Origin: Mytilus galloprovincialis
Lineage: Eukaryota > Mollusca > Bivalvia > Mytilida > Mytilidae
Direction of reading: 5' to 3'
DNA length: 64,000 nt
Assembly: GCF_965363235.1 (NCBI RefSeq)
Contig: NC_134847.1
Location: 55,460,439 to 55,524,438, forward strand
Part shown: piece by piece, positions 6,929-61,440 of the stretch
Position numbering within the stretch: position 1 is the first letter of the stretch
How the letters are laid out: every line of letters starts with the position of its first letter
Translations under genes and position numbers: made by a program
Notes under the pieces: generated by a model
Database searches by the model: none
Told to the model about the DNA's origin: nothing
What the model saw: the letters and a program-made list of their open reading frames with translations, nothing else

Positions 6929-8095
6929 TCACGTATTTACATACAGAAAGAAAGCCACAAGAATTATTACAATAATTGCATATGAGGAAAATAAAAACAA
7001 TTTGTCGAGAAAATTAGATGCATTTTTTCCATTATAGAGTTGTTTCTCTTTTTTCTCACAGCCCATAGGAGTAACGTCCCGATTCTTTGTCTTTCTGTTC
7101 AGGAAAAATTTCATAATCCTTCCAGGGAAATATTCTTCTTCGTAGTATAGCTTGGTTGTTATAATGACAGCCACTACCGTTAATCCACTCATCAACATGA
7201 TAATTATCATAACAATCAACAGGAAACACATTGGATTAGAGGATGCTGGGATTGATGCTGAAACAAGCGTTAAAAATATGGCGTACGACAAAAGTACTGT
7301 CATTGCTAAGGATATACGCTCTCCTGATTCTACCGGAAGTAAAAACACTAGTGGATTGAGCAAACACAACAAAACAGTCGGTAGAACAATCATTACTATA
7401 TAGTACACTGGTTCGCGTTTTAATGATAAACTCATAAAAAACCTAAAATAATAGCTTGGGTGTAGTTGTGCATAGGTGTCTCCAGTTACCACTTCCCAAT
7501 TTGAGTTTTTTGTGTAGTAATCTAGATTTACTTCATCAAATGACGATATTAATTTGTAAGTACCAGCATCTCCATTCCAAATGATAAATTCTAAGAGGCA
7601 TGGTTGGGTATCAAGAGGAAATTTTGAAATATCAGTTTTGCATTTTGCTTCTAAAATACTTCCCGGGGAATACTGAACAAATCCGCTGCTATTTAAAAAT
7701 ACTCTAAAAGCAGAATCAAAACCGATAGGTTCAAATTTCTTTGCATTATTTATCAGATAAATCCACGGTATCCAAATATCAGTTGAATCCACTTCCAATA
7801 AATATGTATTTCCATAATCTTCAGGATTCCATGACAATGATGTGTCTTTCCATACCACTGATAATCCTCCTGTTAGAACGAGCGTTTCCTCGATCTCTCT
7901 AAAAGAATTGATAGATAGTAAATAGAAAGCCAGTGAAATTTCTAATGGTTCTGAATGATTGTCCACAGGTATAATATTTTTCCTATAACTACTGAAAAGA
8001 TCATCATATTGTTTTGTCACATTAACTAAAGTTTGTCCAAAACTCGGCAAAGGAAACGGGAGTAATATCAAGACACAGAAAATGAAACGATTCAT
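6929..8095 (-). CDS. Intronless nicotinic acetylcholine receptor-like subunit, copy 2
   Basis: Complete 388-aa Cys-loop receptor subunit with the same architecture as copy 1: signal peptide (1-21), ligand-binding domain with C-KTDISKFPLDTQP-C, four TM segments, short intracellular loop, TM4 close to the end. The GER motif before TM2 predicts cation selectivity. Loop C lacks the double cysteine. From about residue 222 on it differs from copy 1 by a single residue (NRDV against NQDV), while the first 221 residues differ at about 32 positions (counted by eye), including the tip of loop C (TGDTYAQLHPSYYF against NGDTYAQLDPRGYY). Upstream DNA is homologous to copy 1 for about 400 bases. Probably functional. 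Confidence 0.93.
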   Translation of the reverse strand: MNRFIFCVLILLPFPLPSFGQTLVNVTKQYDDLFSSYRKNIIPVDNHSEPLEISLAFYLLSINSFREIEETLVLTGGLSVVWKDTSLSWNPEDYGNTYLLEVDSTDIWIPWIYLINNAKKFEPIGFDSAFRVFLNSSGFVQYSPGSILEAKCKTDISKFPLDTQPCLLEFIIWNGDAGTYKLISSFDEVNLDYYTKNSNWEVVTGDTYAQLHPSYYFRFFMSLSLKREPVYYIVMIVLPTVLLCLLNPLVFLLPVESGERISLAMTVLLSYAIFLTLVSASIPASSNPMCFLLIVMIIIMLMSGLTVVAVIITTKLYYEEEYFPGRIMKFFLNRKTKNRDVTPMGCEKKEKQLYNGKNASNFLDKLFLFSSYAIIVIILVAFFLYVNT

Positions 8096-8204
8096 TTCTT
8101 ATTTTCTTCCAAGAGTTCCACATTTACTGGTAAATATAAGTTGAATTGCACAGAATGATACACACAGACACAAATTAAGCGTTTCAACTATGTTTTAAAA
8201 CATA

Positions 8205-15190: not shown

Positions 15191-15269
15191 CGTTTTATAA
15201 CGTATTTAAAACTTGAAATGTGTATATCATTCTGCTTCTTTTAACAAGTAAACGTGGAACTATTAAGAA

Positions 15270-16436
15270 ATGAATCGTTTCATATACTGTTGCATGGTAT
15301 TTCTCCAATGTCATTTGCCAGGTTTAGGACAAACTTTTGAAAATGTGACAAAACTTTATGACGATCTTTTCAGTAGTTATAGGAATAATATCACACCTCT
15401 AAATAATCAATCAGAGCCTTTTGAAATTACACTGGCGTTTTATTTATTATCAATCAACTCTTTTAGAGAAGTCGAGGAAACGCTAGTTCTAACAGGAGGA
15501 TTAGCTATAGTATGGAAAGACACATCATTATCATGGAATCCTGTAGAATATGGAAATATAAATTCATTGGATGTGGATTCTAAAGATGTATGGTTACCAT
15601 GGTTTTATCTACAAAACAATGCCAAAAAATTTGAACCAGTTGGATTTGATTCTGCTTTTAGAGTAAATATAAATAGCAGCGGGTTTGTTAATTATTCTCC
15701 AGGAAGTATTTTAGAAGCAAAATGTCAAACTGATATTTCTAAATTTCCTTTTGACACCCAACCATGCCTATTAGAATTTCTTGCATGGGGTGGAGGCGCT
15801 ACATTTTACAAATTGATATCGTTTTTTGAGGAAGTTAATTTAGATTTTTACACAAAGGACTCAAATTGGGAAGTGGTAACTAGAAAAACATATGCACAAA
15901 TAGAACCAGAAGGTTATTATAAGTTTCATATGAGCCTATCATTAAAACGTAAACCAATGTATTACATAATAATGATTGTCCTTCCAACGATGTTACTGTC
16001 CTTTCTTAATCCATTAGTGTTTTTACTTCCGGTAGAATCAGGAGAACGCATATCATTATCAATGACAATACTTTTATCGTACGCCATATTTTTAACGCTT
16101 GTTTCAGCATCAATACCAGCATCCTCTAATCCCATGTGTTTCCTGTTGATTGTTATGATTATTATCATGTTGATTAGTGGATTAACGGTAGTGGCTGTCA
16201 TTATAACGACCAAGCTGTACTACCAGGAAGACTATTTCCCTGGAAGGATCGTGAACTGTTTCGTTCACAAGAAAACAAGGAATCAGGACGTTACTCCTTT
16301 TGATTGTAAGAAAAAAGAAAAACAGATCTATAATGGAAAATATGTATCTTATTTGCTTGATAAGTTTTTTTTAGTTTCTTCCTATTTAATTATTGTCATT
16401 ACTCTTGTGGCATATTTTCTGTATGCAAGTATGTAA
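15270..16436 (+). CDS. Intronless nicotinic acetylcholine receptor-like subunit, copy 3
   Basis: Complete 388-aa member of the same family, in inverted orientation to the other two and clearly more diverged (for example YSPGSILEAKCQTDISKFPF shared, but LAWGGGATFYKL where the others have IIWNG-AGTYK). Signal peptide 1-20; Cys-loop C-QTDISKFPFDTQP-C; TM1 near YYIIMIVLPTM; SGERIS before TM2; TM3 MCFLLIVMIIIM; TM4 VSSYLIIVITLVAYFLY. The intracellular loop is short. No double cysteine is seen in loop C. The start is set by the Met preceding the hydrophobic leader, aligned with the other copies. Probably functional; ligand unknown. Confidence 0.93.
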   Translation: MNRFIYCCMVFLQCHLPGLGQTFENVTKLYDDLFSSYRNNITPLNNQSEPFEITLAFYLLSINSFREVEETLVLTGGLAIVWKDTSLSWNPVEYGNINSLDVDSKDVWLPWFYLQNNAKKFEPVGFDSAFRVNINSSGFVNYSPGSILEAKCQTDISKFPFDTQPCLLEFLAWGGGATFYKLISFFEEVNLDFYTKDSNWEVVTRKTYAQIEPEGYYKFHMSLSLKRKPMYYIIMIVLPTMLLSFLNPLVFLLPVESGERISLSMTILLSYAIFLTLVSASIPASSNPMCFLLIVMIIIMLISGLTVVAVIITTKLYYQEDYFPGRIVNCFVHKKTRNQDVTPFDCKKKEKQIYNGKYVSYLLDKFFLVSSYLIIVITLVAYFLYASM

Positions 16437-46284: not shown

Positions 46285-47665
46285 ATGACTATTAATTCAT
46301 GTAAGAGTAATGTTGTCCATTTCAGACCGACCTCATTTAAACGATCAAGTCACGTCTTTAAGTGTGGGGATATGTGTGTACTGCTACTAGCAGTGAATAT
46401 GCTTATCTAGGCCTTGTTTTAAATGAGTTTCTAGACTAGTATTACTGCAAAAGCAGTTGCTAGGTCAGCAAACAGAGCTCTAGGTCTGGTTATAGCTAAG
46501 TGTAAAGCTATTGGTGGCATGTCATATGACGTCTATAAAAAACTATTTGATGCACTTGTAAGTCCTATTGTTGAATATGGTGCCGCGATTTGGGGATGCA
46601 AGAATTTCTCATTTATAAATGCGATTCAAATGAGAGCGTGTAGGTTCTTCCTTGGTGTTGGTAAATTTACACCTAATCCAGCTATTATGGGAGACATGGG
46701 GTGGATTCCAATTTACCATACTCAATGGAAAGTAATTGCAAGACACTGGCACAGATTAGTAAATATGGAGCCAGATCGTATTAATAGGAAAATATTCATA
46801 TGGGCAGATGAGGTCAGTCTGAAACACAGAATTGTGAAAAATTGGAATTTCACTGTTAAAAAACATTTCACGGAACTTGAATTGGTTGACTTTTGTAATA
46901 CATCACTAATATTAATAAAAATATGTTTATTGATACAGTCATGTCAAGAATGTTTGATATTTATATTGAAGAATGGAAAAGTATTGTTAGTTCATCCTCT
47001 TCCAGACGGGGAAATGGGCGTAATAAGTTGGGAGCCTATAATATTTTTAAGCAGGAGTATGTTGTAGAAAACTACTGCAAACTGTTAATGCCTTTTTGTG
47101 AAAGAAGCGCCTTTGCAAAATTTAGATGTGGGGTGGCTCCTATTAGACTGGAAACTGGGAGGTATGCAAATTTGCCGCTGGAAAAGAGATGTTGTTTTAA
47201 TTGTTTTAATACTGTCGAAGATGAATATCATGTTATTTTACATTGTCCTGTTTATAATGATCTTAGACAAGTTCTTTTTACTGAGTCTCTTAAAATTGAT
47301 GAACATTTTAATAGTTTTACTGATTGTCAGAAAATGGTATTTTTATTTTCGAATCAAGATATTATAAGATTATGTGCCAAAACCTGTAATTTACGACTCC
47401 GAGAAGTTTTATATTGTAAACAAGGATTTGTATAGTAAGTCTTACTATACAAATCCTTGTTGTAAATAATAATTAAATACTTTTGTGGTATAATTTTACC
47501 ATTCAGGTTTAATATTTATTATGTACATATTCTTTTAAGTGATTATCGTCTCTCATAAATCTGTACAGATTGGCTTATGTATACAAAATGTATCTTTTAT
47601 AAATGTATTGTGTAATTTTATACATAAGGTGAGACGTAAATAAAATATTGAATTGAATTGAATTG
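46285..47665 (+). mobile_element. 5'-truncated LINE (non-LTR retrotransposon), 3' part
   Basis: Encodes the C-terminal part of a LINE ORF2: thumb-region peptides (KKLFDALVSPIVEYGAAIWG, IQMRACRFFLGVGKFTPNPA, GDMGWIPI) and the terminal zinc-binding motif C-FN-C-FNTVEDEY-H-VILH-C. Two frameshifts are visible, near 46435 and 46905-46925, so it is not active. After the stop at 47433-47435 comes a 3' UTR of about 230 bases ending in AAATAAAATATTG and an (AATTG)n tail, the expected LINE 3' end. The endonuclease and RT catalytic core are missing. Confidence 0.85.
47419..47461. repeat. 43-base palindrome across the LINE stop codon
   Basis: Arms 47419-47439 and 47441-47461 (21 bases each; ACAAGGATTTGTATAGTAAG against CTTACTATACAAATCCTTGT plus the outer A/T pair) are perfectly complementary with a one-base loop at 47440. 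It covers the last codons and the TAG of the LINE frame. Confidence 0.95.
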
Positions 47666-47921
47666 CGATATTTTATAGGACGAAAAAGTATGATGTTTCT
47701 CCATATAGAAATTCTTTGGATAATGAAAACACATATCTTTCGAGCAGAAAACGAAAATTTAATTTACATGATTGCATAAGCAGTCCGACTGTGGCTGATA
47801 TCGAAACAGATATATAATTACTTAGATCTGTCAAATCAAGGTATAACGTTGATTTTCCTTCAATAAATTTTGTTTAATTGCGAATTTAAGCATGAATTAA
47901 GAATTGGAATCCTAATCAGGA

Positions 47922-48059
47922 ACATTCAGGCGCGGATCCAGAGGCGGGGTTCCGGGGGTTGGAACCCCCCTTTTTTTGGACGATCAATGCATTTGAATGG
48001 GGACATGTAATTGGACCCCCCCCCCCCTTTTTAAAATGGCTGGATCCGCCCCTGACATT
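47922..48059. mobile_element. Small MITE 'CAGGCGCGGATCCAG' with 5-bp duplication
   Basis: The element is 47927-48054 (128 bases). The left end CAGGCGCGGATCCAG and the right end CTGGATCCGCCCCTG are inverted with 14 of 15 matches. Direct repeats ACATT flank it (47922-47926, 48055-48059). Internal G- and C-runs around 47955-47970 and 48015-48027. Confidence 0.85.
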
Positions 48060-48592
48060 TATATGACTTAGATATACTGTTAATTAAACTACCTTTTCAA
48101 AAAAAATATGAATCCGTCAATTTTCTTTAAAATGATATGAATTTTATTTACTATTCATATTTGCCTTTATTTCTAAATGTTTTCAGCAGACAAATAACCT
48201 CAGAAAATAACATTTTTAAAAGTTCCAAACGCGGACCTCGGAGAAACCACCACGATCGCTTCGTTGCCAACAGTGCTCGCTGAGGTAACGTTCGCCCACG
48301 ATGACGAGTAAGAGGTCATTACGCAAGTCAATCGAACAAAATGACGTCACCCACATTACTGCGATGACTACATTGCCGGATTCACAGTTGGTCAATTCAT
48401 TGGAAAAAAATAGGGGTGTTGCCCGATATGAAGTTGGCATGTTATATAAATAAATGATCACACAGGCTCCAATTCTTTTGATCAGAAATAGATTAAATAG
48501 TTATAAAGAAACCAATGCAAAGATCAACCATTTTTCATTGTTTTAAAATTTATTTCCGAAAATAAATTGTAAACACCCCTACAAAATAATTA
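48060..48592. other. Upstream region of the DUF3504 gene
   Basis: No other gene. 48230-48330 is richer in CG dinucleotides than the surroundings. No TATA box was identified. Confidence 0.3.
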
Positions 48593-48600
48593 ACTTCCGG
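48593..48600. promoter_or_regulatory. ETS-type site near the DUF3504 gene start
   Basis: ACTTCCGG followed by TG reads CACCGGAAGT on the other strand, the consensus for ETS/GABP-type factors common at housekeeping promoters. It lies 33 bases upstream of the ATG, so the transcription start is probably close by. Confidence 0.35.
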
Positions 48601-48632
48601 TGTTCATTTTTTCGTCACACAAAAACAGAAAC

Positions 48633-51600
48633 ATGATGGAGCATCGGAACAAGAGTTTGGAAAAACAAGAAACAGAAGAAGAATGTGTGGGTGACGATGA
48701 AGAAGAACCGGAGGTGGTCATACGTACAGCCATTCACTACCTGAGAGAATTCGTGACAGCAAAAGGCCACAGCCTTAGCAATGTCACAAGCCTACCGAAC
48801 ACTCAACTTGCAGCATACCTCAAAGAGTTCTATACGTCTGTTAAGAATCGTGACGATGTTCCAGAATCTATTTCCCTCAAATATATTAGAGCAGGTTTAC
48901 AAAGATACTTTGCAAAGAAATCAAACATTGACATCCTCCGAGATAAATCATTTGATCATGCAAATGCAGTTTTTGATATAACAATTAGACAGACACCCAG
49001 GAGGTGTCACCGACTTCTTATTGATTCAGATGACCTGAAACACATTTATCTAGGTCCTGCTATGAACACAGATCAACCTGACACGCTACAGAACAAGGTT
49101 TTCTTTGACATAAACCTGTATATATGCAACAGGGGGAAAGACTTCTTGCGAGTAATGTCCAAAATTGATTTTGATGTGTCAACAGATACTGATGGACGAA
49201 AATATGTATGGCTAAAATATCACCCTAAATTTAGCTTCAAAGAATTAGTTGGAGGGTTATCAGACAACGAACCAGTCATGCAAGGTTCACAGGTCGGAGA
49301 GAAAATGTATGAAAGACCAGGTACAAACAACATTATGTCATGTATGTTTTTAAGTTAATGTTATGAAAGGCAATAGTTGTAATAGACAACTTTCGAGTTC
49401 AATGCATTTCCATCAAAAACTCTTGTTTTTAATGAACATCATTCGTGCGTTTAGGGGCATTGTCACTTCCGTTCCAATGATGAGCGATTGATTGGAAAAC
49501 TATAATGCTATATTGCACAAAATAATTTGGCAAATTAAATTCTCATAATTGACACTCAGCACTGCTGTCATTAGGGGGTTGCGATTAAGTACTCACAAAA
49601 CAAAATTTATTTCTAGTTTATTCTGCACAATGATGATCACTAAGACGCTTGATGAACGCAGGGATCTCCATGGCCTGTTTAACGATGGCGCTCCGCCATC
49701 GTTCAAATGTCTTGCGCCATCGTCAAACGACTCGCGCCATCATTAAATTGTCTTGCGCCATCGTTAAATTGTCTTCCGCCATCGTTCAAAACTTATTGTT
49801 TTTTGTAGCCCGACGCCATTTTTTTTATCAATTATAATCAAATGCATGTAATTGCATAACCCTTAGGCTTTTTATGTTATAATCCAATACAGTTCTAACG
49901 CCTGAGGGATATCCGGATTAAGATCGCTAATCACTTGTACCTGAGCTTGTACAGGTAGATCATCAAACCAGACAGGAGAATACTATCTGAGGATAGACGA
50001 TCCATTTGTCGAATTAATCAAAGTTTCAGCAAATGATTATGATAATTTAGATTAAATAAATAAATTAATAATCCAGTTACAAAGAAAACAGTTTAACAAG
50101 TCGAACACGTGCTTTATTTTGACTTACGCAATCAGCATCCCCCTTTTTTAAGAAGTACAAAATAAGACGCAAAGCAGTAAATACTATTTCATCGCAAATA
50201 ACTCGAGTACTGCTGTAATGATAATTTAGAATTACTTTAAAAGTTTAAAAGTAAAAACTTAAATATTTCCTGAAAAGAATTATCGTATCAGAATTCCGAA
50301 TTCATTTCGTATATTACAATCAAATTGATACATCTGCGTTTCCGGTTTCTATTCCGACACGAAAGATGCATGTTGCACAGCATCAATTTGCCAGATAAAG
50401 TCATTAAAAACCTTTTCATTTGTCAACGTTTGTTTTACAAATCTCTTTAACCTTTTACATAACCCGTACGAATCGTTTTGTTGTTGCTGCAAATCAGCCA
50501 TACCGGTAATGGGTTCTGAATTTGTCCGTGTCCATGAAAAATAAGCTCCACATCAAATGATTTTTAACCCCCATAACAATTACCAAAAATACAAGAAATC
50601 TACATGGGGACTTCATGACAGCTTTTGGTCATTCTCGACTAAGGGGGAACCATGAAAACTTGGCATTTGAATGGTTAAAAACGGCAATAAATGAAAATAT
50701 TGATACTTCTAATTCTATAATGAAAATTCAAATAAATATAATTTAAATAAGCAATGAATTAGCATGTTCCCCATTCCTTGTATGGATGGGTAAAATACTT
50801 CTGATCGCGCTACACCGTACAGCGTAGACACGGTTTGTAATGGTGAACATTCCTCCATCGTTCAATTTTCATCCATGGAGATCTCTGGAACGGTAAGAGT
50901 GCAGGGGGATACAGGTGATCCCCTCTATCTGGTAAATAAGGTCATAAAGGCATGCATAATTGAAGAGTTTTTCCCAGTGACAGATGAACTCGAAGTGGTC
51001 TATTGTAGTGTAACTAGAGTCACTTGATTTACTAGGTAAAATATAATGGTATAACCAAGGATCCGGAAATTTTTATACCTAATTTCGGTCATTTTCATAC
51101 AACTTAAAAGTTGATGCCCCTTTTCAAAAAATGATTGTCAAAATCACATTACTGCATGAGACTCATTATGAGTATGCTCATACTCGATCGTCATGTTCGT
51201 AGCATCAACAAACTTGTTTCACTGTTGCATCGCATTTACTTTATGATTTGTCCTACCATTTTCCAAAAATCGTTTAAGAGCAATTAAGGGAAGGCAACAG
51301 TTTATAAATAAAATGATTTTAATGACTCAAAACGATAATATTCTCAGTTATTGCTTACGTTTCCTTTGATTCTGAAGTCAAAATTCAAACCGGATGTACT
51401 GCGACAATACTAAAACGAACAATTCCGGACTCATTTCCGGGATTAGTTTTGTTTATCCAAATCACAGGAAATCATCGGCTTTTTAATATTTTACCTTTAA
51501 TAGTGTAAGAATATTAATTAAAATAGTTGCACTAGCTTTATTTAGGATGAAATTATTTTATATTTACAATTAATTGTCTAAATCTGTGGAAGAGAATTTC

Positions 51601-54600
51601 AAACATGCGTATTACATAGTAAACAAAGCACGTGTGTTAGAAGTAAAAAAATATTTTTTTCTTCGTAAATTAAACCAAGTTTTAATTTAATTTTAAATCA
51701 TAATTGACAATTGTCTGACCTGTTGAGTAATTAAATAATGAAGCCAGTTGGTATGGAATTTTTATTTCTTTATAATAATAGTTTGGAGCTTGTGATTAAT
51801 TGCCAGGTGTGAATTAAAAACACAGGTAAAGAGATTAGCAATCATTAGCCAATAGCTCCCCGAGGCATTAATATAGTTATTAGGAGGGCCCTCAGGATTA
51901 TAACACTTTAATGAAGTGGCAGTTTAATTACAGGAAGTCGATAACAAAACAAAAATATGTTCAAAATGGCGATTTTGAAAGTCGATCTCAACGAAATGAC
52001 CGAAATTATTACGGTTGAAAAATAAAATTTGACCTAAATCCCAATTAAAAGTTTAGGACATAATAGTTTCAGTTTAGGACATGACTGGCAAATATGACCG
52101 TTTCCGGACCCTTGGGTATAACATATAGTTGCTCAATGGCGATGATACAGACCTGCCAACTATCCCAATTTTGGCAGTATTGTCCCGATTTTCATGCCTC
52201 GGCCTGAATTCTGATATCAGGATTGTAAAACAAATCATAATCCTGAATTTTACAAAATATACCAGAAAAAATTAATGGTTACTGATTTTGAAGTTTTTTT
52301 TATTACTGTGTATAAACCTGTTAGAGCACCTTCGAACACAAAGAAAGAAAACTCAAATTGTATCCATTTTCTCATTAATCAATCAGGGATATAACTCTAT
52401 AGGGTTATTACTTTTAATATCTTGCATGTGTTATTACAGGTTATTAGACTAACTCAAAATCTGTCTTTATCTGTCTATCTTTAAGACAGTTAGGTTATGG
52501 TCTTTTGCGTCATGGTACTACGATCTAGATTAGAAGGTCTATCATGCTAATGATTCTAAAAAAAATATCTGTGTTTACAACTTACTACATTTGAGGCTTT
52601 AAATTTTTTTTTATTTGTCAACCAAAAGCTCTGTTTCCATAAATTTATCATGGTCCTAGAAAATTAGGCAAAAATTTGTCAATTTATTGTTCAACCTTGA
52701 TTTCATGTTAGTTTTGGTAAACTTGTTTTATTGTTTAACAGAACTAGGCCTCCTCATTTATAAGATTGATTAAGTGTTAAATGAATATTATGGGTCTTCA
52801 AGGAACTTTGTTGTAATGTTAATATTTAAATTTCTTTACATAAAAAAACAAAACAAATCAGCATGAAAAACAATGAAAGGCTGCAGACTTTGCACAGGCA
52901 CATACATAGCATGGCAGGGTTAAGTATATTTGTGAGCCTAATCTGGGACAGTGGTGTAAAAGTACATTTGTACAAGACAAGAAAAAACTGTTGTATTAAA
53001 AGTTGACTCATTAGATCGACCACAGCTAAAAATCAATTAACAAAGAGTCTAAACAGTTACTGATCTAAGATGACTTGCAGTTACTAAAAGCTAGTTCAAA
53101 GCCAATATAGCATTAACGTAAAAATCAATACACATCCTAAAGTCTATAATCATATAATATCATAACACAGTACATGTATACTTTGACCTAGATATATAAT
53201 AGTTACCTATTTCGTTGCTGTAAATATACATGTACCTTATTCAGAATTTATTATTTTTCAGGTGATCATAGGTGTCCTGTTGCATCCTTTCAGAAGTATG
53301 TTTCCCATCTACACCCAATGACTGAAATGTTCTGGCAGAGACCCAAGCGTTCCTTTGTAGCATCAGATTTGGTCTGGTATGACAATACACCACTTGGAAA
53401 TAGTACCCTTAGTAAAATTATGACCAGGATGTGTTCCATGGCAGGTTTAACAGAAAACTATACAAATCATGCAATCAAAAGCACTTACATCCCACTCATT
53501 GAGAAGATGTGTAAGGACGCCCTGAAAAGGTCTACTCTACTTGACCTCAGTCTCAGAAGAATAAGTTCTCCGTTGACCAGATCCAAAGGTTCAGAAGATG
53601 CATGTATGACAGATGTGTCATCTGTTTGTTCAGATGTTAAAGACGAGGAGGAGAATCCAAATTCTGGTAAAAAAATAGACTATTGAACTACTCTCTAGTA
53701 TTTGAAAACTAGTCAAAAGAAGTCAAAGTACTATATACATATGTATTATTATTTCTTGAGATAAATGGAGCTCATAGGTTAATGCAAATTTTTTATTTGC
53801 TAAAAAATCTGCAAATGTCACATCGTGGGGTGTCATTTTTATGCCCCACCTACGATAGTAGAGGGGCATTATGTTTTCTTGTCTGTGCCTCCGTTCGTTT
53901 GTCCGTCTGTGCGTCCGTCCGTTCGCTTCAGGTTAAAGTTTTTGGTCAAGGTAGTTTTTGAAGAAGTTGAAGTCTAATCAACTTGAAACTTAGTACACAT
54001 GTTCCCTATGATATGATCTTTCAAATTAAAGTTTTGACCCCAATTTCACGGTCCACTGAACATAGACAATGATAGTGCGAGTGGGGCATCCGTGTACTTG
54101 AGACACATTCTTGTTTGTGAAATATGTTTTGTTTGTGTTTGAAACTCTGCATGCTTTCAGCATAGTATTAGGAAGTCCCTTTAGGACTATAATGATTTGA
54201 ATCATATTGACTAGTAAATTCTAGTCTTTAACTATATATAGACATACAACATGTACAATGACTTGAGGAACAACTAAAGAATATAGTGATCTGGATTATA
54301 AAAGTTTCAGGATAGATCAATTGTAAATACACAATTAAAGAAATGAAATTGAGAATGCAATTGGGGAATATGAGACAACAACCCTACCATAGAGCAGACA
54401 AAATATATGCATTATCTAAGTACTATTTTTTTATCATATTTTGTTGATTCATTTTGATAAAATGAATATTATAGTCTTTTTTATATTATTGCACTAGTCA
54501 CCTTTTTTGGATTGAAAGTTAATATGATAAAAAGTTTATTTATGTTATTCTACATTTAAATTTTTATTACATTTATGTTAGGATTGAGGCAGGCAAAAAT

Positions 54601-57600
54601 GAAAGTATTGGAAACAGTACATGGGTTAGAGGTGAAAGACATTCGCACATTTGTAGACTGGTTAAAGACATTCCGTGTAGAATTAGATGGAGGAGGTTTG
54701 TTTATATATATGATAAAGACATTCAGGGCATACGATACAGTTTTGATCCTGTATTTACATTTTGTTAAAAATTTCCATATAGACTATTATTTACCTGATT
54801 AAATTATATATGTAATAAAAAATATAACTTCATGTGCTAATTTTTTAGTAAAATGCATACCTGCCAACTTTTGAAAATGGCCATGGGGGTTTTTGTGCGC
54901 GGCACCATTTTTGAGGGTAGAATTTTTCGCAGCATTTTTTCGTGTGATGATTTGGCTCCTAAAAGTGTCTGACATACTTCTTTTTTGGGGGTTATAGTTG
55001 AAGATGCTATTATAACCTATCTTTTTTTAAATTGTTTGATTGTTGTATTCTTTTTGTTGAGATAAACACCAGTCAGATGACTTTATGTTTGTCTGATACA
55101 TTGTCAAGAAATAAAAAAAAAAGTAATAATTTTATAATTTAATAACAAAAAAACCAACAATATATGAGGGTCTGGAAATGGGGGGGGGGGGGTGTCTGTT
55201 GTTCTATAAACATTTAATTTTCACCCCTTTTTTCTCTAATCTTCAAAAAATTAACCTCTTTTTTTTCTAATCTTCAAAAAATTTGACCACGTATTTCTCC
55301 AATTTTCATTTTTTTTTGCCCGTTATTCCCTTATCTTCATTTTTTAAGGGCATTATATTCTTTAATCATTTAACCCCATCCAAACCCTCATATATTATAT
55401 AGATCAATACCACAAGCAGTACTAGAATGTTTGGAGACATCATTAAGGCCACCGTGGTCAACTTTAAAGTCTCTGTTGCAAACTTTACAAAAGGCATGTG
55501 ACAATCCTAACGTTGATTTAGACAACCAGCCCCTGTACTTGACATCATTCTCCCATTTCTCTAAGTATTTGCACGAAGCAACACGCTTTTTTTTCTTAGG
55601 CGGTGACAGAACTATTTTGCAAGTTATAACTCGCCCATCATGATTCCAATTTTTATAAATTTAACACCCAAGTTAAAAAAAAACAACTCAAAATTTCGAT
55701 TCTTTGATTGTTTACTATGCCGACATTAATCAACTGGTGAATGCGTGATCACTAAATTTTGATTGGATGAAATTTGTCAGACACGATTTGTCTCCCTTGG
55801 GAAAACTTTCAAAAGTTCAAAATCGGGAACAAAAATATTTTTCGTGTAAATTTTACTAAAATCGTGTTTTTTGGCTATTTTCACGATCACGATCGTGTAA
55901 TCGGGACAGAGGGTCAAAATCGTGTAGTACACGCCTAAATCGTGAAAGTTGGCAGGTATGAAAATGAGGTCGAAATTTTGTATATTTGCTCAAAATTCGG
56001 ATTTGTGGACGTAATTTCCCTTTCAAAAGAAAGACATAACTTTTTTGTTTTAAAAGATAAACACAAATTGTTTTTGTTAAATAATTTGTAATTTCTGTAT
56101 TTTACAAGTTTCCTAAAAATTCCTACATTTTTTATTCAGAAATAACACACATTTATCAAATGTTCATGAATATAGGAAAAAAAATCATTTTTTGCTGTAT
56201 ATTTATCAAATTAAAAACATTTGCACTATTTACGTTTTCATGAAAATTGGCACACATAATCTTCTCGCGTAACCAAACCAAATGGCATTTTAAAAAAGAG
56301 GGGTCCATGAACTCGTTTTCAAGTTAGATACAATGTAAGTTTGAATGATAAAAATCAGTCGTAAACTGAAGTCATAGTTTGACGTTGCGAAAATAACCAT
56401 TTACGTTAGCAACGTCATTACCTCCCCTGTAACTGTATCGTATGTCCTTAAAGTCATATACCATGTATACTGAGAATTCTGATTTATTATAGATGATTTT
56501 TTAAATTTGTGTACATGTATATAGATTGGTAAAAGTGCTGTTGATATTATTTGCATACACTGGAAAAGTATTCTCATGTATTACACAACTTCTATATTAT
56601 GAAACAAATTTTACTCAATTTCATAAAGACACAACTTGCATGTTTATTAAGTCTTGTAATTAATTCACATTCATACAATTATAGCAGATATAGTAAATAG
56701 CACAAAAACAAAGTCAAAAGTGTTCTATTATCCGTTCTCTAACTTAATTTTGCTTCAACCAAATTTTATAAAGTTTACCACAAGACACAGATCAAATTTA
56801 AACTTTTTTAAAATCTATTATAGCATCACATCTGTAACAAAATCTGTACCCCAGAAAAATTAGGAAATCTTTTCAGTCTTATATATACATTTACATTTAC
56901 ACTTGAAATGTAGAAAGTTTTGTTTTGTGATTTTTTTTTTTGTAAGATAAAAATGAATTACATTGGTTGAATACATTTATTTTCAGGTTTGGTTGTAATG
57001 TGTAGTCCAGTAGATCAGTCCCGTCAAACAAGTATGGATTCCCGCCAAGGAAGTTTTGACGACCCAAGATCACGACAAAATAGCATGGATGATTTCAACA
57101 GAAGCATTGATTCACCATCCAGGAATGACAATCGTTTGCCTAATGGCAACCAGCTCCTAGGATCATCGAGTCCAATCCAACCAAAACGAGGAGTATCACC
57201 TTCACCCCTTATTAAACCTACGATAAGCTTGACAAAAGCAGACAGCATTGAAAAATCAGACAAGGAATTTAGTGTTTCAGTCAGACAGTTTGACTTTGAT
57301 ACGTCTTCGGGAACACATTGTGCATCTATGGAAAATTTGAAAATGACGGTGCCTTCCCAAGATACAGTTTTAATGACTGGGATACCAGAAAGTGTACAAG
57401 TACTGGTTCACAACAGAGATGGATCCCCTATGATATCAGAACCAGTCCAGTCTAGATTATTTTATTCCAGCAATGATATGGATATTGCTGTTGTGTCAGC
57501 TTTGCTAGGAGAGAGGAATAGCCTCAAAAATAACATTCCGAACACAGGCGCAGAGAAATCAGACTACTATTCAAAGTTACTAGACAAATTTAAACCTATG

Positions 57601-58071
57601 AAAAAAAGGAGTCTGTCGGATCTGGTTGCAGGGACCAAAATAGACGGTGATGATGATCCTGCAAAGAAAAAGTTTGCCTCCACTGAAGGACTGGAACCCA
57701 TTCATGCATCAATGGCAACTCAATCGCAGCCTGTATCAAAGCCTGTAACAATTAATACTCAGTTACTACCTGTGATGGTCTCACAACCGTCGCAGCTACT
57801 ACCAAGACACCTTCTACCATCCAAGGCTATAAACGCTCAGCCTGTACCCCTGATGATCTCACATCATCATCCATTAATGGCAAATACCCAACCAATGCCA
57901 TTAATGACAACTGAACCGGTTTCAGTACATACACATAATATGTTATCAAAAGCGCCAGCTTTTCAAAACTTCATCCAAAACAAAAGTTTGTACAAAAGAG
58001 AGGACAATCCTGCATATTTTCCAGTTCGCCCAGGACTGATGAAAATGAAGATGGATCCAAAACCAAAATGA
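48633..58071 (+). CDS. DUF3504 (Crypton tyrosine-recombinase-derived) host gene, four exons
   Basis: Exons 48633-49320, 53262-53666, 54582-54695 and 56987-58071 give 2292 bases, 763 aa plus stop; all three introns are phase 1. Start: ATGATGG at 48633 in a good context; the frame stays open slightly upstream but without an ATG. Residues about 1-25 are acidic; about 30-100 form a helical, SAM-like N-terminal domain (VIRTAIHYLREFVTAKGHSL). DUF3504, the domain shared by ZMYM2/3/4, QRICH1, KIAA1958 and KCTD1, follows (LQNKVFFDINLYICNRGKDF, FWQRPKRSFVASDLVWYD, NHAIKSTYIPLI). The recombinase HxxR motif reads HAIK and no downstream GH or nucleophilic Tyr is seen, so catalysis is unlikely. The last exon is Ser/Pro/Gln-rich with SRQTSM, SRQGSF and SRQNSM repeats and basic patches (KKRSLSDL). 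Probably a nuclear DNA-binding factor. Confidence 0.85.
49658..50890. mobile_element. Inverted-repeat element in DUF3504 intron 1
   Basis: The left end GCAGGGATCTCCATGG is inverted at the right end CCATGGAGATCTCTGG (14 of 16), and GTTTAACGATGG pairs loosely with CCATCGTTCAA further in. The left side carries a short minisatellite. About 1.23 kb, non-coding. Confidence 0.65.
49680..49795 (+). repeat. Minisatellite 'TCTTGCGCCATCGTTAAATTG'
   Basis: About five units of 21-23 bases (GCGCCATCGT followed by an A/T-rich spacer), sitting inside the left end of the 49658-50890 element. Confidence 0.88.
51050..52120. mobile_element. Inverted-repeat element in DUF3504 intron 1
   Basis: Left end TATAACCAAGGATCCGGAAA and right end TTTCCGGACCCTTGGGTATA are inverted with a few mismatches. 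About 1.07 kb with no transposase; TA at both borders. Confidence 0.65.
52830..52985 (+). repeat. SINE-like family C, 3' part
   Basis: 'CTTTGCACAGGCACATACAT', 'GGCAGGGTTAA', 'CTAATCTGGGACAGTGGTGT' match the end of the 5521-5890 copy. Lies in intron 1 of the DUF3504 gene. Confidence 0.6.
53841..54116 (+). repeat. 'TATGCCCCACC' repeat E, copy 1 (DUF3504 intron 2)
   Basis: Starts ATGCCCCACCTACGATAG, has a GTCCGT/GTTCGT microsatellite-like part, then 'AAGTTTTTGGTCAAGGTAG' and 'ACTTAGTACACATGTTCCC', and ends 'GTGGGGCATCCGTGTACT' and 'ACACATTCTTGTT'. The ATGCCCCAC and GTGGGGCAT parts are inverted. Confidence 0.85.
54850..55966 (-). mobile_element. DNA transposon with zinc-finger-coding remnant, DUF3504 intron 3
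   Basis: The element is 54856-55960. CATACCTGCCAACTTTT on the left is inverted on the right (AAAGTTGGCAGGTATG). AAAATG is repeated directly at both flanks (54850-54855, 55961-55966). On the minus strand, about 55400-55640 reads through KYLEKWENDVKYRGWLSKST and SHAFCKVCNRDFKVDHGG, then LNDVSKH: a BED/TTF-like zinc finger (CKVC...H...H) as at the N-terminus of hAT-type transposases. The rest of any transposase is gone. Superfamily not fixed: hAT normally gives 8-bp duplications. Confidence 0.78.
55161..55394. mobile_element. Small inverted-repeat element nested in the 54.9-56.0 kb transposon
   Basis: TATATGAGGGTCTGGA on the left is inverted on the right (TCCAAACCCTCATATA, one mismatch). It contains a G-run and 'ATCTTCAAAAAATT' repeats. 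It ends at the point where the zinc-finger frame stops, so its insertion probably truncated that frame. Confidence 0.7.
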
Positions 58072-59424
58072 AAACTTTCCAAAATCATTTGTTGGAAGTC
58101 TATTTTGGCAGCTTTGCTGGTATTTCATTTTTAGGAGTCCCAGACAGATGCAAGTTTTTGCTAAGAAAGGATTCATGGGACGAGATCATTTCATTTGGGA
58201 AATGATGGCAATGTTCAGTGTTTTTAAGAGATGTGGTTATTGTTTTTTTTCTGTGTTGTAGTACACAGAAGGACTAATTTGCTTTCCATTATGTGGTATG
58301 TGATGATAAAAGCTGTTTTATAACCGGAAAAGACAGTTACAGACTATTGTATGGTATGCATACAGTGTCACAGAGACAGAAGAGGAAGGTTTATCAGTGA
58401 ATGGACTTTTGGTGTAGTTTATCAGTGAACAAATTTACTGTGTAAAATTTGAGGATGTTTTAATGTGATTGTGATAAAGAAGAGGTGATAACTTCAAATT
58501 ATTTTAAAGTAATGTTGTAGTTAAATGTAGTTTTAGTGTCTACCATTTGTTTTAGATGACAGAGAGTGCAATTATAATTTAAATGAAGGGTTTATTATAA
58601 ACTGCTAATTTTGAATGAAAGTTTTATTATAAATCACTAATTTTAAAAGAAGGGTTTATTTTAAGGAGGAAGTAATATATATACATGTTTGTATATTAAA
58701 CTTTTTGTTTCCTTGCTTTTGTTACCAGATTCTATTTTTGATGCTTATTTTATGTTATGTTTTTTGTTGTATAGTGTATTTCCTTTTGATATTTTTGTAT
58801 TTAAGTATAAAACATTTTTAAATATTGTCCATTGTTAAGCATATATGCATTTTTAGCAATTTTTTGTATTTGTGCTTAATATTCATCTTTTATGATATCG
58901 ATTACCATTGTTTACCTCAAACTGTCCTAAAGTAGTCTGCTTTTTTAAGCCTAACTATAAATTGGGTATTTTGAAGAGTTGAAATTATGTTCAATGCTTT
59001 GTACCATTACTTCTTTTTTCTGGCAGATGAAATGACTATAGCTGATATTAAGAGTTAAGAGTAAGGCATAAATAATTTAATAACAGTACTCTAGTTGAAG
59101 AGTTGACACATCAATTAGGAAGTTTACTGGAGACACTGAGAATATTTCTATTCTGAGGCATGACAAAAATTTAAGAATTAAACATGTTAAAAGCTTGAAA
59201 AATGTGTGAAATATTATAATATTAAATTCCATGAAGATTTTGTTGTACATTGTATTAAGATCCTACAAATGAAATTTACAAGATTATTGTCATTTCGTAA
59301 CTAGTCAAATTCCAATTCTGATAATATCTTTTTAAACTGCATATTTGAGGTATGTGTCCTTTTATATTTGATTATATTGTATTAATCAAACAATTAATTT
59401 CAAGTCAGTATTTCTGAATACTTC
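58072..59424 (+). other. 3' flank / probable 3' UTR of the DUF3504 gene
   Basis: AT-rich, with no open frames or clear repeats. A long 3' UTR is plausible; no canonical AATAAA stands out close to the stop codon. Confidence 0.4.
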
Positions 59425-59697
59425 TAATGCTGAGTTCACACGTAATTGGAATTCTATTTGCATTAGCTAATTCGAATAAGTTTAATTCGCATTTGAAACG
59501 AATTACTTCCTAACGTCAATTCTAATTCTAATTGCAATGCGCGTCAAATTTGCTTTACTGTCCATATTCGTATTCACAAAAGCGTATTTCTAAAGCGAAT
59601 TGGATAATTCGAATTAAAACAGAAGAGTGTGTGAACGCAATTAGCGAATTCGATTCGAATTCAATTCAAATTAAATGTCCATGTGAACGAGGCATTA
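59425..59697. mobile_element. AATTCG-rich inverted-repeat MITE
   Basis: TAATGCTGAGTTCACAC on the left is inverted on the right (ATGTGAACGAGGCATTA) with a few mismatches. The interior is full of GAATTC/AATTCG motifs. About 270 bases, in the 3' flank of the DUF3504 gene. Confidence 0.7.
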
Positions 59698-59808
59698 TTT
59701 ATGATATGTCAGTTTTGGATTTGACAGTAAATATATATATGGCATGTATGGTATCCCATGAAAAAAAAAGATAAAAAATACACTAGGATAATGATTTATA
59801 ATGTTTTG

Positions 59809-59814
59809 AATAAA
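59809..59814 (+). terminator. Candidate distal poly(A) signal
   Basis: AATAAA 1.74 kb after the DUF3504 stop codon; one of several possible sites, chosen because it lies in a gene-free stretch before repeat E. Confidence 0.2.
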
Positions 59815-60111
59815 AAGGTGAATTTGTATATGAAATATTATTTTATATATCTGCATTTTTATGCCAAATCAAATTATTCAGGTACACCTATTGTACCTGT
59901 TCATAGTGTGAGAGTTCTTCAAATATATGGATGATATTGTAACCTTTGCATTAGAAGATTATCTATTCAAAGGAAAGTTATTCTTATTAAATAAGAACAT
60001 GAAAATTGATATTTATTGAATGTATGTGGGCTCCCCTTATAATTCTATAAAAATTTTTTTCTATATATTTATTACAACTAGTTTAGATAAAATTTGTAAT
60101 AACAATATTAA

Positions 60112-60375
60112 TAGTAGAGGGGCATATTATTTTTTTTGGTCTGTGGAACACTTTGTTTGTTAGTTTGTCTGTCTGTTCCACTTCAGATTCAAGTTTTTGA
60201 TTAATTTTTAGTTCAATCAACTTGAAACTTAGTACAATGTACACATGTTCCTTATAATATGATCTTTCTAATGTTAATGCCAAATTAGAGTTTTTATCCT
60301 AATTTCAAAGTCGAATGAAAATAAGATTCTAAGTGCGAGTGGGGCATCCGTATACTATGGACACATTCTTGTTCT
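60112..60375 (+). repeat. Repeat E, copy 2
   Basis: 'TAGTAGAGGGGCATATTAT', 'AACTTGAAACTTAGTACA', 'GTGCGAGTGGGGCATCCGT', 'GGACACATTCTTGTT'. The left end (ATGCCCCACC) is missing and the CCGT-rich part is reduced. Confidence 0.8.
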
Positions 60376-61440
60376 TATGCTTTATAAAGAATCACATATT
60401 TTGTACTTTTCATCTTCCTGTATTTGATCTTATTTCTTCGCAAACATGAAATTTCCTTGATTTTTGATGTAAGAGTGCTCGAAACAATAAATGCCTTGAT
60501 TAAAAAAAGTTAATTTTACTATTGATGTTCTCAACTCTTCAATCAATTAGATTTTTTAAATTGATCATTAACATGATTATAAAACTCCTGGTGGTTAAAA
60601 TTCTTGACCAAGAATTAAATTGTATCTTCTAACTACATACACATTTGAAAATACTTATTCAAGCAGACAAGGATTTCTGTTCATATGGCTTTATTGATAA
60701 ACAAGGAAAATCAATATGTTTATGAACTTTGCAAAAATTGGAAAAAGATCGAAAATTTGTAAATTTAACCTGTTGGAATATTAAAAAAACAATATTGGTA
60801 TGGTGTATGTTATTTTAAACCTTGGTTCTTGCAACTTAATTCAGAATGATAAAATACTCATTGTTAATATAACAAGTGGTCAATAATTATCATCTTGCTC
60901 CATTGAAATTTTGCTTTCATTTTTTTTTAAATTTCTATATATTAAAGGCAATTTAAGATGCAAGACATGTTTATATGAATTGGGTTTCATAGGTGGATTC
61001 AGGACAAAAAGTTCTGGATGTGCCACTGGGTTTTATTTTGTTAGTAATTATTTTCTGATAATTCATTGCTTGTAATGAGGTCTAAGACATTAAGTTTACT
61101 ATGCAAATTATATTGTAAAGAAATCCAGGGAAATACTGAATTTATATTATAAGTATGAAAGGAGCATCAATATTTATTCATTTATCAGGGTAAATAAGGT
61201 CAGCCCTTAACTAAAAAAATGTTGGTTTCTGGAAAATCACTAATGTTTACTTTCAATAAAAAATATCTCTGTATTAGAAAGTAAGTAATAACATTAATTG
61301 TGCAGATCAAGTTTTATTGTTGGATTCATAGAGAAGATGGCATCAATTCTAAATCCACAAGATTTTTTTTTCTATTTTATGTCTAGCATTGTTTTGATAT
61401 GCTGTTAGTATACGGTACCCTCTGTATTTCAATGAATTTT

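Follow-up and report, generated by a model that had tools for sequence, protein, structure and literature searches.

A putative host gene derived from a Crypton-type recombinase, without a complete active site, in the mussel Mytilus galloprovincialis

The window analysed here, that is, the whole stretch of 64,000 nucleotides (C10:55460439-55524438), carries on its forward strand a gene (48633-58071) whose four exons join into 763 codons plus a stop. We propose that this is probably a mussel host gene, domesticated from an intron-bearing Crypton-like tyrosine recombinase of which the fold would have been kept and the cutting activity lost. Three features of a domesticated Crypton-derived gene were found: a recombinase-derived domain, the loss of catalytic residues and an intact longer gene.

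Gene model and coding potential

The start at 48633, the end at 58071 and the reading frame given by the initial annotation are reproduced here, and splicing yields an intact ORF. Its description as a spliced single gene holds in that the gene is multi-exon and intact, but one of the exons, exon 3, had been missed (Table 1). All introns are GT-AG and phase 1, and without exon 3 the gene is still in frame, with 725 codons and a stop. All four exons have their highest coding score in the chosen frame of the six, and they also score above stop-free pieces from 20-45 kb of the window, taken as non-coding, with P values of 0.0000, 0.0182, 0.0056 and 0.0000 for exons 1 to 4, respectively (mean chunk, 5000 resamplings). 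Among 200 simulated 10-kb sequences, the longest stop-free run was 179 codons, which exon 1 (254 codons) and exon 4 (366 codons) both surpass. The run of exon 2 (164 codons) lies below this simulated maximum and above the 136 codons reached within 20-45 kb. Polyadenylation hexamers occur downstream of the gene, from 58695 on. From these sequence features we infer a transcript, which would be spliced as modelled.

Table 1. Positions of the gene parts and of recurring flank sequences in the window.
Feature	Position or sequence	Strand	Remarks
Exon 1	48633-49320	+	Start codon; N-terminal part with helices in a weak model; ArgI motif CNRGKD, R167 kept
Exon 1 donor	CAG/GTACAA	+	Gene model
Intron 1	49321-53261	+	Phase 1, splits a Gly codon three residues before CPV
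Exon 2	53262-53666	+	Remainder of the DUF3504 fold, then a non-homologous linker; without the GH[RK]..Y segment
Exon 2 residues	53468-53470; 53477-53479	+	H299 kept; HAIK with K302 for ArgII
Exon 3	54582-54695	+	114 nt, ~38 residues, phase 1 on both sides
Exon 3 donor	GAG/GTTTGT	+	Looks weak
Exon 4	56987-58071	+	~361-residue tail; stop codon 58069-58071
Dispersed flank repeats	~47460-47676; 59411-59704; 60192-60381		Recurrence in the genome

The added tail of about 360 residues noted initially corresponds to exon 4, which is found only once in the genome (itself, 1 match of 5 scored candidates), as is exon 3 (itself, 1 of 1 candidates). Three SRQxS motifs are present in the tail, together with PLM repeats and the basic clusters KKR and KKK. 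The only Pfam entry listed for it, MG4 (E 0.0038), is under its cut-off, and a single scan against other genome contigs (25 pattern matches) gave no relative; a single scan of exon 1 against viral contigs (7 pattern matches) gave none either. The exon 4 model (pLDDT 37.1, single sequence) is uninformative and looks low in structure, and the charge-hydropathy test places this exon on the folded side, not calling it disordered.

Elsewhere in the window, three similar 389-codon stop-to-stop frames of Cys-loop ligand-gated channels (66-1235 and 6929-8098 on the reverse strand, 15267-16436 on the forward strand), with Neur_chan_LBD and Neur_chan_memb, appear to be a local gene family of which each member is one open frame. 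In keeping with a Mytilus host, the Pfam family of myticin, a mussel peptide, has 17 matches in the genome among 30 scored candidates, with clusters at C10:51.84-51.88 Mb, C10:43.9-44.1 Mb and C1:94.61-94.64 Mb.

A recombinase domain with a disrupted active site

In the whole spliced protein, Pfam DUF3504 (PF12012) matches residues 144-287 with an E-value of 9.4e-11 and a score of 42.5 bits, the cut-off being 29.7, and the other two Pfam matches listed are under their own cut-offs. The match above the curated cut-off corroborates the Crypton-type fold proposed in the initial annotation. Two further observations of that annotation hold as well: HAIK in place of HxxR, found again in an alignment with 23 mussel relatives, and the missing catalytic Tyr, which appears neither in this alignment nor in a six-frame profile search of 48-60 kb. 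In tyrosine recombinases generally, the hairpin Lys and the second His are also catalytic. For Cryptons, the catalytic residues are given as R-H-R-Y in the part of the 2011 survey that concerns them (PMC3212892). The alignment with the 23 relatives shows that the gene keeps ArgI (C-N-R-G-K-D, R167) and the HxxR histidine, H299 of N-H-A-I-K, and that K211 (hairpin Lys), R302 (ArgII, now Lys), H328 (second His) and Y337 (Tyr) are replaced; the hairpin motif TKNH is gone, with S-D-N-E there instead. The complete recombinase set that makes up the active site of an active Crypton is not present in the gene.

Homology to the relatives ends near residue 311. The family-conserved columns, defined from 9 intact relatives, are kept at 45 of 60 positions before residue 310 and at 0 of 5 after it, or by stretch at 27/37 in residues 30-229, 18/23 in 230-309 and 0/5 in 310-340, and the conserved residues lost include E170, N171, E208, K211, H213 and R302. 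The Fisher P of 0.0019 for these counts exaggerates the contrast, as a single event may have removed the last segment, and the 0/5 does not stand for five independent losses. Each of the nine intact relatives, left out in turn, keeps 41-59 of 55-67 columns ahead of residue 310 and 4-5 of 5-7 beyond it. The 75% kept by the window gene before residue 310 equals the value of the lowest intact relative (L069, 41/55, 75%), the other eight keeping 83-92%; it is at the low end of the intact range, and the fold is therefore less well kept than in these eight.

A profile of the C-terminal segment, run in six frames over 48-60 kb, revealed no convincing Tyr segment in a hidden exon or behind a frameshift. 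Only the first 20 of its 92 positions were matched, by the HAIK helix (E 0.0023), and the next match, on the opposite strand, had an E-value of 0.095. As a control, the same profile found the Tyr segment in 3 of 5 loci (L028, L061 and L067), two of them (L028 and L067) being near-copies of the profile member L066; the two misses were L052, whose exon 2 lies outside the stretch taken, and L027, which ends before the segment.

The gene was also aligned with a smaller set of 7 relatives (A1). DUF3504 matches 8/8 members, and Phage_integrase of Pfam and XerA of NCBIfam each match 7/8, the window gene being the one left out in both; the QRICH1 domain of Pfam matches 6/8, the window gene not among them. 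Against the PDB, the A1 profile matches QRICH1 (9hjt, E 2.2e-6) over profile positions 48-283, the part that is still present in the gene, and its matches to XerA (5hxy, E 0.0025) and to an integrase (3nkh, E 0.0038) depend on the C-terminal segment that the gene does not have. The frame of exon 1 by itself found nothing in the PDB at E up to 10, and the exon 1 structure model (pLDDT 44.7, single sequence) is uninformative.

Copy number and relatives in the mussel genome

The genome searched comprises 1,384,861,812 bases in 331 contigs and contains at least 150 DUF3504 matches (best 150 of 413 candidates scored); those listed fall on contigs C1-C14, Mytilus having 14 chromosomes, and many copies are broken. 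Exon 1 matches itself, followed by a best-scoring match of 34% identity over residues 27-193 and by shorter pieces of up to 45% identity (100 matches; best 150 of 191 candidates scored). The best long match of exon 2 has 47% identity over 79 residues, and two short stretches, 48 and 37 residues long, reach 54% (150 matches; best 150 of 263 candidates scored). The single gene described by the initial annotation is thus upheld as a single copy: the many near-identical copies that it had named as counter-evidence did not appear in the exon searches. The several similar copies of an active Crypton are likewise missing, with no near copy of any exon found.

The wealth of DUF3504 copies, many of them broken, would suit a different explanation, namely a recently dead Crypton copy with exons open by chance, exons 3 and 4 stemming from a neighbouring or artefactual gene. 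In a neutral simulation of the CDS with substitutions only, 152 of 500 copies were left without a stop at 1% divergence, 25/500 at 3%, 1/500 at 5% and 0/500 at 10%. After 5% of change without constraint, a frame of 763 codons would seldom be intact, and a dead copy young enough to have drifted freely by no more than ~3% could also still be open; the weak appearance of the exon 3 donor points the same way. This explanation is nevertheless unlikely in our judgement, considering that exons 1, 3 and 4 are without a close copy and that exon 2 has none above 47% over its length, that replacements have struck the catalytic residues at several distinct sites and left most fold residues in place, that the exon phases all fit, and that exons 3 and 4 score as coding.

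The related families present a different picture of copy number. Near-identical pairs are found on different contigs for L016/L018 (99.5% DNA identity), L021/L024 (99.6%), L019/L023 (99.3%), L028/L066 (98.3%), L065/L068 (97.1%), L012/L014 (96.3%) and L058/L061 (90.1%). Several families keep the full catalytic motifs and have copies with 90-99.6% DNA identity on different chromosomes, and are therefore probably mobile; not every copy is whole, the frames being shifted in L018, L026, L028 and L067.

Domain order and the motifs FY, LYxCRRG, CPV, WQRP, WY and NHxIxxT are common to the window gene and the local Crypton-like recombinases L010, L025 and L066, as are the position and phase of intron 1, found in several families. 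They differ in that the relatives have a complete catalytic set and that several of the families are multi-copy, neither of which applies to the gene. The intron is at the identical position and phase in L010, L025, L066 (with its near-copies L028 and L067) and L069; that of L065/L068 lies within one residue, only the donor of the corresponding intron is seen in L011/L052, and the other intact families have no intron at that site. HxxR, GH[RK] and Tyr are kept in L010, L025, L065, L066, L068 and L069. The close kinship to an active local Crypton that the initial annotation would have counted against domestication is therefore lacking in degree (34% for exon 1, 47% for exon 2) and present in the first intron, shared with intact, probably mobile local families.

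In a tree of 24 rows, a split with support 99/98 sets four more distant recombinases off from the gene and 19 mussel recombinases. The gene has the longest end branch of all rows (2.27, the next being 1.52). With this long branch and with forks left open, the sister family of the gene is not fixed by the sequence tree. The intron, as a label on the tree, needs five changes, two of which are forced by starred branches; it is therefore not a clean clade mark, and gains and losses are both possible. Broken, partial, near-copy or more distant loci were left out of the tree (among them L001, L003, L005, L006, L011, L013, L018, L026, L028, L034-L048, L052, L054, L055, L059, L061, L065, L067 and L068).

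Three observations concern the relatives themselves. L066/L028/L067 and L065/L068 are multi-copy Crypton-like recombinases with a spliceosomal-type intron inside the recombinase domain, and none of 12 passages on introns in the 2011 survey mentions such introns within the recombinase domain of Cryptons (PMC3212892). The C-terminal end of the exon-2 frame of L010 repeats 37 residues of exon 1, a small internal duplication. Matches to DUF3504 or exon 2 also lie in long open frames at C3:54210855-54211079, C1:70827083-70827595 and C4:63294950-63295396, and these frames, of 1430, 1008 and 593 codons on C3, C1 and C4, are possible fusions or further co-opted genes.

In the flanks (47450-48632 and 58072-60500), only dispersed repeats recur, and the absence of transposon ends stated initially is thereby sustained among the best 40 candidates for each flank; weaker repeats may be missed, as the searches scored the best 40 of 2449 and the best 40 of 5374 candidates. 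Two other repeat-like sequences were seen in the window: a dispersed repeat in intron 3 (~55961-56451), 80% identical over ~507 bases to an insertion in L057 relative to L062, and two overlapping forward frames at 46435-47435 that resemble a non-LTR retrotransposon remnant (zf-RVT E 0.068, under the cut-off). The intron shared with related, probably mobile families of the same genome could be taken to indicate that the dead protein still serves a parasitic role, as a helper or inhibitor of active copies encoded by an element family. A single copy, flanks without recurring element ends (best 40 candidates each) and an identity to the related families of only ~30% argue against this role, which we consider quite improbable.

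Comparison with known DUF3504 genes

WOC, ZMYM2/3/4 and QRICH1 resemble the window gene in having a DUF3504 fold without catalysis. The domain is near the C-terminus in ZMYM proteins and in QRICH1 (514-757 of 776), whereas it is on the N-terminal side in the window gene (144-287 of 763). WOC and ZMYM carry MYM fingers ahead of the domain; Pfam lists neither MYM nor BTB in the window protein up to an E-value of 10, with HMMER filters dropping most matches above 0.1. The mussel genome has a WOC-like locus ~7.8 Mb away on the same contig, with MYM fingers at C10:47667875-47668315 (both MYM matches of the genome search are at C10:47.668 Mb) and DUF3504 matches downstream on the same strand (47650690-47653519), which presumably belong to one gene. 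In this mussel locus, the only one compared in this respect, the exon continues uninterrupted across the CPV site, the place of intron 1 in the window gene. We reject the window gene as a WOC/ZMYM orthologue on account of this separate locus, its other intron positions and the lack of a MYM match.

Two further animal genes are described in parts of the 2011 survey (PMC3212892). In KCTD1 isoform b, as in the window gene, the recombinase-derived domain is N-terminal and followed by an added C-terminal part, and the catalytic Tyr and ArgII are lost with the His kept; the KCTD1 tail is a BTB domain, whereas that of the window gene is without a known domain. KIAA1958 is likewise a DUF3504 gene of unknown function, set apart here by description. 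The domain lies in one exon in KCTD1 and is uninterrupted by introns in KIAA1958 (PMC3212892), unlike that of the window gene, which is split by intron 1. It follows that orthology of the window gene to any of the known DUF3504 genes (WOC/ZMYM/QRICH1, KCTD1 or KIAA1958), to which the same Pfam domain and the N-terminal domain of KCTD1 isoform b (PMC3212892) would lend some credit, is highly improbable: the mussel WOC-like locus is separate with introns at other places, the KIAA1958 and KCTD1 domains are in single exons, the vertebrate proteins being compared by description only, and the BTB and MYM domains are not listed at E up to 10. The best reading of the sequences is that the gene had an origin separate from WOC/ZMYM/QRICH1.

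According to sections of the same survey, four Crypton domestications took place in animals, all very old and some from lineages thought extinct, and among molluscs one (Lottia) was reported to have Cryptons and two, Pinctada and Aplysia, to have fragments related to WOC (PMC3212892). A mollusc-specific domesticated Crypton gene does not figure in these sections, nor is one named in the titles and abstract openings of the PMC literature searched. The relevant part of one clam study lists Crypton among the repeats and mentions no domesticated gene (PMC8905726), and KIAA1958-like and ZMYM3-like names occur in a table on Pinna (PMC13093298).

Discussion

We favour the domestication of an intron-bearing Crypton-like recombinase as the origin of the window gene. 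The recombinase fold would have been retained while the hairpin Lys, ArgII, the second His and the Tyr segment were lost, and two downstream exons would have been gained, one short and one encoding a long, possibly flexible tail. Lacking the nucleophile, ArgII and the hairpin Lys, the remaining fold could bind DNA and would be unable to cleave it. The product would most likely act in the nucleus as a non-cutting DNA- or protein-binding module, with the tail offering a surface for regulated contacts. By analogy with the regulators described in parts of the 2011 survey (PMC3212892), it may be a DNA- or protein-binding nuclear factor, and a role in transcription is suggested purely by this analogy; more broadly, we infer that the gene is under selection and that its product would be located in the nucleus, bind there and perhaps take part in gene regulation. 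A bolder hypothesis, to which we assign little probability, is that a Crypton family with relatives still moving in the same genome was domesticated independently in the mussel lineage; the dead recombinase would then bind the ends or the proteins of these elements and thereby restrain them. If this were true, the window gene would act as a brake on the very transposon clan from which it came.

At the evolutionary level, this kind of event is already known, and it is the mussel lineage that is new for it. The novelty of the probable domestication proposed here is that relatives with complete catalytic motifs, some of them with the same intron, persist in the genome that contains the dead single-copy gene. 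With the dead gene beside its intact relatives, the steps of domestication, such as the loss of the Tyr, the addition of exons and a change of DNA target, may therefore be compared side by side.
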